From Thermostichus vulcanus str. 'Rupite' (lineage in GTDB: Bacteria > Cyanobacteriota > Cyanobacteriia > Thermostichales > Thermostichaceae), in assembly GCF_022848905.1 (NCBI RefSeq), contig NZ_JAFIRA010000017.1:1-64000 (forward strand): 64,000 nt of DNA. Direction: 5' to 3'. Numbering within the stretch: position 1 is the first letter of the stretch; each line of letters starts with the position of its first letter. A program made the position numbers and the translations under genes. The notes under the pieces are model-generated. The model searched no databases. It saw nothing but the letters and a program-made list of their open reading frames with translations, and was not told the origin of the DNA. Shown here in pieces: positions 25,275-29,655 of the stretch.

Positions 25275-25997
25275 ATGACTGCATCTCTCATGACGGAAGA
25301 ACTGTTTCGGGCGGATGCCTATCTCACTACCTGCCAAGCTAAGGTGATCGCCCTTGTGGATACTGGGATCCAGTTGGATCGAACGGTCTTTTACCCCACA
25401 GGGGGCGGGCAGCCCGGAGATACGGGATCCCTGATCACAGCCGATGGTCGCGTCATCTCGATTGTCGATACTCAAAAGGGGGAAACAGGCATTGTCCATG
25501 TCCCAGCTGAGGGATCCCCGTCCCTGAACATTGGGGATGAAGTCACCGCTCGCATTGACTGGGAACGCCGCTATCGCCACATGCGCATGCACACGCCTCT
25601 ACACCTGCTCTGTGCGGTGGTAGAGGGTGGAGTGACGGGGGGACAAGTGGGGGAAAGCAAGAGCCGCTTGGACTTCGATATCCCTGGAGACAAACCCGAC
25701 AAGGAAACCCTGACAGCCCGCCTGAATGAACTGGTGCAGGGGAATCATGGGGTGCAGCCCCGCTGGGTGAGCGATGAAGAGCTAGCGGCCAATCCTAATT
25801 TGGTGCGCACCATGTCGGTTAAGCCGCCGACGGGACAAGGGCGGGTACGCTTGCTGGACATTGAAGGGGTAGATTTGCAACCCTGTGGCGGCACTCACGT
25901 GCGGGCAACCGGGGAAATTGGCCAGTTGCTGGTGAGCAAGATTGAAAGCAAAGGCAAACAGAATCGCCGTATTGTGGTTAGCTTGATGGATCCTTGA
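25275..25997 (+). CDS. AlaX-type alanyl-tRNA editing protein
   Basis: A 240-residue stand-alone editing domain related to the C-terminal part of AlaRS. Zinc-site motifs are present: [11 protein letters not shown] (HxxxH) and CGGTH near residue 206. The N-terminal [12 protein letters not shown] segment makes this the AlaX-M class, which hydrolyses Ser-tRNA(Ala) and/or Gly-tRNA(Ala). It follows the phn operon by 54 bases on the same strand and may be co-transcribed. Its end overlaps convergent ndhB by 20 bases. Confidence 0.88.
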
Positions 25998-27543
25998 AAT
26001 CCACTACCGCCTGAAGACGGGCCGCCTCTGAAAAGGGGGCTTGCGCCGTCGGGAAGCCCAAGAACGGGCTCTCCTCCACCGCCTGGGTGGAGAGGGTAAA
26101 CAAGGGGTTGGAGAGGATCCCGGCAAAGATGGTCGCCACCAGAGTCAACACCATACCCACCCGCAGAGCTTGCATGCCTTCCTCTTGCCAGTTGGTCTCC
26201 GGGTAGTTTTGCACCGAAACCGACATCTCCTGGGGCTCTTTCACCACAATCGTTTTCACCACCCGCACGTAGTAGTAGATGGAGATCACACTGGTAACCA
26301 ACCCCACCAACACAAGGGTATAGGCTCCCGCTTGCCAACCGGCCCAGAACAGATACAGCTTGCCGAAAAAGCCCGCCAGAGGGGGGAGCCCACCCAGCGA
26401 GAGCAAACAAATGCTCAAGCACAAGGTCAGGAAGGGATCCTTCTGGTAAAGGCCGCTATACTCGTTAATCTCGTCGGTGCCGGTCTTGAGGCTGAACAGG
26501 GTAATGCACAGGAAGGCCCCCAGGTTCATGACCAAATACACCAGTAGGTAGAAGATCAAGCTGGCGTAGCCCGCCTCTGTCCCCACCACTAGCCCAATCA
26601 TGACAAAGCCCGCTTGCCCAATTGAGGAATAGGCGAGGAGCCGCTTCAGGCGGGTTTGGGTAATCGCCACCACATTCCCCAGCACCATGGTCAAGATCGC
26701 CAGCACTGAGAACACAGCGTGCCACTCTTCGGTCATGGCCGGGAACACCGTTGCCAAAAACCGTACCGCCAGCGCAAACCCTGCCGCCTTGGATCCCACC
26801 GATAGGAATGCCACTACCGGAGTTGGGGATCCCTCGTAAACATCGGGAGTCCACTGATGGAAAGGGACGGCTGCCAACTTAAAGCCGATGCCGCCGATGC
26901 AGAGCACCAAAGCAATGATCCCCGCCAAGCCTGAATCCCCCATGTGCAGCGCAATCGCCTCCAGATGGGTTTGCCCACCCGACAGGCCGTACAGCAGTGA
27001 CATGCCGTAGAGAAAAATCGCCGTGCTACTGGCCCCGATCAACAGATACTTCAGGGCGGCCTCAGAGGAGCGAGGGTCTTTTTTGGTGTAGCCGGCCATC
27101 AGATAGCTGGCGATGCCCAGAGTTTCTAAGGCAACAAACACCATAATTAAATCGGTAGCGCCGGAGAGGAACATGCCCCCCACGGTGGCGGTGAGCAACA
27201 GCACATAAAACTCGCCGGTAGCAGCCCCCGACTGGGCGATATAGCGCTCCGCCATCATCACCGTTAGCAGAGCTGTACCCACCACCAAGCTCCGGAACAA
27301 AATGCTGATCGGATCCGCGGCAAAGCTACCCAAAAAACTTTCTGGTTGTGGGTGCTGCCACTGCAAAACCAGGGTTACCCAAGCCCCGACCAAGCCCAAG
27401 ATCGAGAGAACCGGCAGGCTTTTGCGAACGGACGAGCCGCCCACCAAGTCCACCACCAGCACCAACAGTAGAGTCAGGGTGACGACCACTTCTGGCCAAA
27501 TGGCGCCAGCATTCAGATTGGCGGTTGGGGCAAAGATATCCAT
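25978..27543 (-). CDS. ndhB: NAD(P)H-quinone oxidoreductase subunit 2 (NDH-1)
   Basis: A 521-residue antiporter-like membrane subunit of the thylakoid NDH-1 complexes used in respiration, cyclic electron flow and CO2 uptake. It has about 14 hydrophobic helices with conserved stretches such as [38 protein letters not shown] and [21 protein letters not shown], and the C-terminal NdhB extension. Single gene, as in other cyanobacteria. It is convergent with the AlaX gene and overlaps it by 20 bases. Confidence 0.97.
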
Positions 27544-27664: not shown

Positions 27665-28981
27665 TCAATAGAGCTTGGCACTAGAGGTGAGCACCAATTT
27701 CAGGCGGGCATGGATCAAATCCAACTGAGCCAACCCCAGATCAATTTCTCCGTCGATGACAATACCGGTGTTGATCAGCCGATCCAACAGTTCCAACAGG
27801 GATCCCTCGCGGTGGGGTTGCCCAGGGTAGTAGTCCCCTTTGCGGGGCAGGAGTGTACCCAAATCCCCCAAATCCACATTCAAGTCGGCGGGGTCAATCT
27901 GAAACAGCTCGCAAAGGTGCAAAATCTGATCCCGCAAGGTTTGCAGGCTGGTACCGGCCCGTTCGATTTGTTCCGGGGTAAGACGCTCCGCCTCCATTTG
28001 GCGCACCACCTGCGCTTCCATGAGTTGCCGCAACAGTTCCACCAAAGTCAACACCAACGAGGCTAAACCCGCCTCCGGGCGCTCCGGAGAATGGATAAGT
28101 GGGGATCCCGCCAGCTGGTCTAGCTCCTCCGGACCAGCAGGGGCAATGGAAAGGCGAGGCAGAGGCCCTGTCGGATCTGCGGTTGGGGTTGAGATCCTTG
28201 CAGTCGAGACCCAGTGCTCGAATGGCTGAGACAGTTGCGCCAATTCCAACAGGTGCAGACGGGGATCCTGGGCGGCCTGCTGTCGTTCTTCCGGCAGGTT
28301 ATAGCCCCAACCGGCCAGAAACAAAACCGCATCCTGCAGAGCGGGTACGGCTTTGACCTGCTCCAGGGTTTGCAGGCGATCCTCCACAAACCACAGCTCG
28401 GCAGCGGGCAGTTGAGCGGCTGTGAGCAACCGTTGTAAGGTCGTGGATTTGGGGGCACGCACCTCTTTGCCCAAAATGTGGTGGCGCAGCAGTTGGATCC
28501 CTTCCCCTTGTAGAAGCTGCTGGATAAATCGCCCTTCCTTGGTGCTGAGGATCACCAAGCGCGGTTCCCCGGTAGCCCGGATCTGGCGCAACCAGGCTCC
28601 AACTCCAGGGTAAAACCGATGCAATCCCAGCCAACCAGGCAGATCTGCGTGGATCCATTCATCGCGCACCTGATCCAGCGCCTGAGCCAACTGGTCAGAA
28701 GGGATCCCGGACTGTTGCAACAACTGCTGCCGCTGAGCAGGCCAATCCTGGCGCAACTCCGCTTCTGCGATCCCCTGCTGCAACCCCCAAACCAACAAAG
28801 GCATTTCCCAGCCCGTCTCGATCAGGGGGCGTAGGCGGGCGAAGACAGAACGCAAAGGCTCCAGTTGGGACTCCTTAGCCCCCCAAATCCGTTGACAAAC
28901 CCGGCAGGCAGTGGCGAAGTATTCCGCCAACCCATCGCAAATCACCCCATCAAAATCCAAAGCCAAAAGGCGGGGGTGCAT
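27665..28981 (-). CDS. HAD hydrolase - GvpK - GvpA/J-like fusion protein
   Basis: One uninterrupted 438-residue frame with three parts. Residues 1-250 are a cyanobacterial HAD-like hydrolase: motif I DFDGVICDG (D9, D11), motif II LVILSTKEG, motif III around K172-K179, motif IV FVEDRL (E200, D201). Residues about 303-380 match gas-vesicle protein GvpK (LVLTLVELLRQLMEAQVVRQ, LTPEQIERAGTSL, DPADLNVDLGDLGTLLP). Residues about 393-438 match the GvpA/GvpJ family (LLELLDRLINTGIVIDGEID...LDLIHARLKLVL). A proline-rich linker (260-300) joins the HAD and Gvp parts. No other gvp gene is in the window. The combined function is unknown. Confidence 0.82.
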   Translation of the reverse strand: MHPRLLALDFDGVICDGLAEYFATACRVCQRIWGAKESQLEPLRSVFARLRPLIETGWEMPLLVWGLQQGIAEAELRQDWPAQRQQLLQQSGIPSDQLAQALDQVRDEWIHADLPGWLGLHRFYPGVGAWLRQIRATGEPRLVILSTKEGRFIQQLLQGEGIQLLRHHILGKEVRAPKSTTLQRLLTAAQLPAAELWFVEDRLQTLEQVKAVPALQDAVLFLAGWGYNLPEERQQAAQDPRLHLLELAQLSQPFEHWVSTARISTPTADPTGPLPRLSIAPAGPEELDQLAGSPLIHSPERPEAGLASLVLTLVELLRQLMEAQVVRQMEAERLTPEQIERAGTSLQTLRDQILHLCELFQIDPADLNVDLGDLGTLLPRKGDYYPGQPHREGSLLELLDRLINTGIVIDGEIDLGLAQLDLIHARLKLVLTSSAKLY

Positions 28982-29010: not shown

Positions 29011-29655
29011 TCAAGACTCTGAAATGGTCACGGACTTAATTTCCACCGGATCCACCGGACGATCCTGCGGCCCAGTGCGTGCAGTTGCAATGGCATCCAG
29101 CACCTCTTCCCCTTCGATTAGCTGCCCAAAAATGGTGTAGTTGGGGGGCAAGGGATAGTCAGCGTGCATGATGAAAAACTGACTGCCATTGGTGTTGGGG
29201 CCAGCATTGGCCATCGCCAGAATCCCCCGGCTGTAGGGACGCTGCACGGGCTCATCCGGAAAGCGATAGCCTGGCCCCCCGCGGCCTGTGCCAGTGGGAT
29301 CCCCACCCTGAATCATGAAACCCCGAATCACCCGATGAAAAATCACCCCATCGTAAAAATGCTCATTGGCCAAGAAGACAAAATTATTGACGGTGAGGGG
29401 AGCTTCTTGCGGAAACAGTTCCAGCGTCATCGTGCCGGCGGTGGTCTCCATGGTAGCCGTGTAGGACTTGGCCGGGTCGATCACCATCGGCGGGGGACTA
29501 TCGTAGGTTTTCACGTCTTTGCCCAATTGTTGTGCCAGGAGCAAATCGTAGGAAGAATGCGGGCGGGCCGAGACAGGGACAACACCTAACCCCAGCCAAA
29601 GCAGCACCATCAGCACAGCCATCTTCAGGAGGGTCATTCCAGGTCGCACACGCAT
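29011..29655 (-). CDS. Exported cyclophilin-type peptidyl-prolyl isomerase
   Basis: A 214-residue protein with a signal peptide (LLKMAVLMVLLWLGLGVVPVSA) and a cyclophilin domain: NNFVFLANEHFYDGVIFHRVI, FMIQGGDPTGTG, GILAMANAGPNTNGSQFFI, and YTIFGQLIEGEEVLDAI. The active-site arginine (FHRV) and the QFF segment are kept. Predicted to speed prolyl isomerisation in the periplasm or thylakoid lumen. Confidence 0.92.
   Translation of the reverse strand: MRVRPGMTLLKMAVLMVLLWLGLGVVPVSARPHSSYDLLLAQQLGKDVKTYDSPPPMVIDPAKSYTATMETTAGTMTLELFPQEAPLTVNNFVFLANEHFYDGVIFHRVIRGFMIQGGDPTGTGRGGPGYRFPDEPVQRPYSRGILAMANAGPNTNGSQFFIMHADYPLPPNYTIFGQLIEGEEVLDAIATARTGPQDRPVDPVEIKSVTISES

Follow-up and report, generated by a model that had tools for sequence, protein, structure and literature searches.

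The locus lies on the reverse strand of the window, the whole stretch of 64,000 nucleotides that was analysed, where a single ATG-to-TGA open frame of 438 codons (28981→27665) encodes a HAD hydrolase joined to the gas-vesicle protein GvpK (Table 1). The GvpK profile is matched over positions 5–85 of 85 (E = 8e-31, 106 bits against a cut-off of 25) and PF00741 (Gas_vesicle) over positions 1–39 of 39 (E = 4.5e-13, 49.5 bits), the latter match corresponding to an α-β-β core. Both scores are above the Pfam cut-offs and agree with an earlier note on this DNA, which had assigned residues 303–438 to gas-vesicle families. The Hydrolase profile PF00702 matches residues 4–203 slightly below its cut-off (E = 6e-5), and HAD_2 matches too. 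A sequence search of solved structures with the fusion protein gave nothing beyond a weak GvpA match, and a promoter scan of the fusion region found 0 promoters, which says little either way. The downstream gene ndhB meets an alanyl-tRNA-editing-like gene on the forward strand, tail to tail, with the 3' ends overlapping by 20 bp (25978–25997).

Table 1. Features of the fusion gene and of the genes on either side of it (positions in the window).
Feature	Position	Strand	Basis
HAD-GvpK fusion gene, 438 aa	27665..28981	−	Open frame, Pfam, genus homologues
HAD-IA hydrolase module, residues 1-258	28208..28981	−	Pfam, conserved columns, AlphaFold model, structure comparison
Linker, residues 259-297	28091..28207	−	Low pLDDT, indels, relaxed dN/dS
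GvpK domain PF05121, residues 298-378	27848..28090	−	Pfam
GvpA/J-like motif PF00741, residues 394-432; native tail of cyanobacterial GvpK	27686..27802	−	Pfam
Cyclophilin-type peptidyl-prolyl isomerase gene, 29 bp upstream of fusion gene	29011..29655	−	Adjoins fusion in 6/6 genomes
ndhB (NADH dehydrogenase subunit 2), downstream of fusion gene	25978..27543	−	Adjoins fusion in 6/6 genomes

The earlier note had described one in-frame fusion of 438 residues, exactly as we find it, and had pointed to relatives as the place to look for the same fusion. The full-length protein is present in all six genomes of the genus that were examined (75–100% identity, 423–438 residues as aligned), and the site is identical in each, between the cyclophilin gene and ndhB. 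Two of these genomes are single contigs (2,932,766 and 3,046,682 bases). A frameshift or sequencing error, a possibility raised in the same note, is excluded because the frame is open in six assemblies; purifying selection is also seen on both sides of the junction, and the chance that an artefact of sequencing, assembly or reading frame produced the fusion is vanishingly small. GvpK was found in 177 of 390 cyanobacterial genomes; among the matches listed, frames of 436–470 residues belong to the six genus members only, and those outside the genus have at most 224 residues. The other cyanobacteria sampled encode the HAD protein (254–278 residues) and GvpK (about 140–224 residues) separately.

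The fusion had been read as one of three domains, but it joins two genes. The alignment with standalone cyanobacterial GvpK runs in a single frame over residues ∼290–434, and the standalone GvpK of the sister genus (G007) matches both PF05121 and PF00741; the GvpA-like tail is therefore a native part of cyanobacterial GvpK. As a true GvpA or GvpJ the tail was rejected, with 15.8 bits against an NCBIfam GvpA cut-off of 100. The likeness to standalone proteins extends over the whole GvpK domain and tail (51–67% identity to sampled proteins), the nearest being that of the sister genus (L084:9557-10129); the fusion differs from them in its N-terminal HAD module, in the substitution R328Q and in the position of the gene away from all other gvp genes. 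The sister-genus GvpK begins with an extension (AMQITAAQPQDWGQ...) that the end of the linker, residues ∼275–297 (RLSIAPA... / RLSITPAQPEELSQ...), resembles; where that protein has an internal methionine, the linker has leucine or phenylalanine. This resemblance places the join probably near residues 260–275, with nearly all of both proteins retained.

AlphaFold modelling with 74 related rows as input, a step that the earlier note had proposed, gave a confident HAD-IA fold for residues 1–258 (a Rossmann core with a helical C1 cap, pLDDT > 90 for nearly all residues), disorder over residues ∼263–302 (linker pLDDT about 33–45), moderate confidence for the GvpK helices at 306–359 and low confidence for the last part of the tail. 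Compared with known HAD-IA structures, the first 258 residues reach DALI-scale Z scores of up to 16.9, the closest being phosphoglycolate-phosphatase-like (2hsz, 2hi0 and 2nyv; Z 16–17), which share the fold and motifs at an identity of 12–16%. The module is nevertheless not assigned as a phosphoglycolate phosphatase, as it scores 22 bits against an NCBIfam equivalog cut-off of 225. Standalone cyanobacterial HAD-IA proteins of 254–278 residues (for example that of Synechocystis salina, L127:5989-6774) are 45–51% identical to it and keep the catalytic columns. The catalytic residues had been judged intact from this one protein, and motifs I–IV are indeed kept in all six fusions: D9 and D11 (motif I), T147 (motif II), K172 and K178, and E200 and D201, in columns that are 99–100% conserved in 102 standalone HADs.

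In the GvpK half, 50 of the 54 columns that are at least 95% conserved in standalone cyanobacterial GvpK are kept in all six fusions. Three of the four altered columns are common to the sister genus, and R328Q is specific to the fused clade; each of 32 standalone GvpKs has arginine at this position and every one of the six fusions has glutamine, a change that could possibly bring some shift in GvpK behaviour. Purifying selection acts on both halves, with pairwise dN/dS (NG86) of 0.10–0.16 for the HAD part, mostly 0.10–0.14 for GvpK and 0–0.11 for the PF00741 tail; the linker has 0.24–0.65.

The earlier note had found none of the usual gvp partners in the window, which is correct for the window itself; profile searches of the genome located them on four other contigs, so that the idea of missing partner genes was rejected. 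Its list of genes to look for (gvpA, C, N, F and G) was found in full, although scattered: gvpA, a gvpC-like gene (33-residue repeat, TIGR02641), gvpN and gvpJ lie together on one contig (L005:9802-12290, G000:C7), gvpF on a second (L087:2718-3446, G000:C57), another gvpF/L on C10 and gvpG on C28 (G000:C28:12707-12901). By the same searches the fusion is the only GvpK of the genome. The gvp genes of the single-contig genome G005 lie at about 1.50, 1.55, 1.62, 1.92 and 2.23 Mb, and the set is therefore truly dispersed; across the genus the core gas-vesicle genes occupy several chromosomal places rather than the usual single cluster. The GvpA protein is 100% identical in the six genomes at dS values of 0.35–0.75, dN/dS is 0.01–0.09 for gvpJ, gvpN and gvpF, and gvpA is also below 0.1. 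From these sequences the gas-vesicle system looks maintained and not a relic.

In the GvpK tree the fused proteins group as a single clade whose closest relative is the standalone GvpK of the sister genus, a member of the same family (support 96/94 for this sister relationship); in the HAD tree they again form one clade (100/100), with no settled placement among the other HADs. The sister genus has a DUF3318-like gene back to back with gvpF/L, followed by gvpK. This genome keeps the DUF3318/gvpF/L pair on C10, with a Uma2 gene behind gvpF/L in place of gvpK. A further genome, G006, has the pair and a standalone HAD, and GvpK was not found in it (the genome is 91% complete). From the vacated site, the tree clades and the loci of G007 and G006 we infer that gvpK left its ancestral place and was fused to the HAD gene once, before the genus radiated.

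Outside the genus the HAD family is not tied to gas vesicles. A tally of 59 genomes gave six with the fusion, 24 with both proteins separate, 23 with the HAD only, five with GvpK only and one with neither; the 53 non-fused genomes show no positive association, and the HAD was rejected as a gas-vesicle partner by co-occurrence. Standalone HAD genes often lie upstream of nurA, whereas the HAD of the fusion is joined to GvpK instead: a NurA nuclease gene on the same strand is a neighbour of the standalone HAD in 58 of 102 loci (L163 and 57 others), a sample weighted towards filamentous cyanobacteria, and is usually directly downstream. This recurrent neighbour hints at nucleotide or DNA-end chemistry, or at a part in DNA repair, for the unassigned HAD family. 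In a separate observation, three genomes of family f24 (G030, G044 and G057) and G021 have GvpK and no match to the HAD, which was found in most other cyanobacteria searched.

The earlier note knew of no description of such a fusion. One sentence published in 2010 does mention a GvpK homologue linked to an aspartyl-nucleophile HAD domain, with organism and analysis absent (PMC2963123); the domain pair is the same as here and probably represents this fusion in a sequenced relative. Our literature search found no other description of a HAD–GvpK fusion. The present analysis adds conservation throughout the genus, an origin in a single event, the former gvpK site now left empty, a scattered gvp set still under selection, and evidence that elsewhere the two halves are independent of each other. 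GvpK itself was essential in four of four gas-vesicle systems studied and is described as soluble and little understood; most of its fusions to NanoBiT (split-luciferase) parts still permit vesicle assembly (PMC11445434).

We consider it likely that a single ancestral fusion gave a bifunctional protein, the C-terminal half of which is a working GvpK while the HAD half keeps an unrelated role. In the ancestor of the genus a nearly complete gene for a cyanobacterial HAD-IA phosphatase would have been joined to a nearly complete gvpK, which would earlier have left its place behind the gvpF/L gene. The product would be a single polypeptide, translated as one chain, with two independently folding modules on either side of a flexible linker. 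Its C-terminal module would provide the GvpK function of the cell within the dispersed, still selected gvp set, and the HAD module would continue to act as a phosphatase in its own right, on small molecules or nucleotide-type substrates. Joining the two is probably near-neutral in itself, securing co-expression and tolerated because GvpK accepts terminal fusions; with the independence of HAD and GvpK and the GvpK literature taken together, a passive, tolerated fusion is the economical reading. Weighing against this reading, our literature search found neither expression nor vesicle data for the genus, R328Q may have shifted the behaviour of GvpK, and retention throughout the genus would also be expected from selection for the fusion itself.

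One alternative is functional coupling: through its GvpK half the HAD phosphatase would be recruited to nascent vesicles or to the GvpF/G/L/N assembly complex, and there control vesicle formation through a metabolite or phosphoprotein substrate. In its favour, none of the six genomes has lost either half or the link between them, neither HAD nor GvpK has a second copy beside the fusion, R328Q is specific to the genus, and in a different gas-vesicle system GvpK is in contact with GvpG, GvpN and GvpL (PMC11445434). However, the co-occurrence tally and the nurA neighbourhood both point away from gas vesicles, the disordered linker is under little constraint, and GvpK is reportedly missing from purified vesicles (work cited in PMC11445434); we regard coupling as rather unlikely. 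A natural chimera of enzyme and assembly factor, with GvpK carrying the phosphatase into the seeding complex and so coupling vesicle formation to a metabolite or phosphorylation signal, is in our view unlikely. An enzyme tethered to a shell-type module, or a control element of vesicle assembly, had been suggested in the earlier note; this may be so, but no finding points to it, since across cyanobacteria either protein is found without the other and nurA is the usual neighbour of the HAD gene.

The frame might also yield two proteins in practice, by cleavage in the linker or by additional production of GvpK from an internal start. The linker is disordered and variable in length, and two genomes have an ATG within it, but this ATG is absent from the other four, including the present one; no start preceded by a Shine–Dalgarno sequence and common to all six could be read by eye, and there is no known protease site. 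A conserved internal start across the six genomes was accordingly rejected, and we think the two-protein outcome quite improbable. It is very improbable that vesicles are no longer made and that the GvpK half has been repurposed, for example to oligomerize the enzyme. The dispersal of the gvp genes would suit this, and our literature search found no reports of gas vesicles for the lineage, but the core set (A, C, N, J, F, G and K) is complete, gvpA is invariant and the GvpK half is as constrained as the other gvp accessory genes. The related suggestion of a relic that had gained a new role thus finds no favour, since every domain is under purifying selection.

The fusion offers a natural test of how the essential GvpK tolerates a 260-residue N-terminal partner and a ready-made geometry for labelling or engineering GvpK, and the genus shows that gas-vesicle genes can be spread over the chromosome and still be conserved as a set. 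In a further side observation, the divergent pair of a DUF3318-like gene and gvpF/L is kept in three genera (L088:7698-9279, L084:8026-9466 and L093:4180-5730), even where gvpK has gone, and DUF3318 may belong with gas vesicles.
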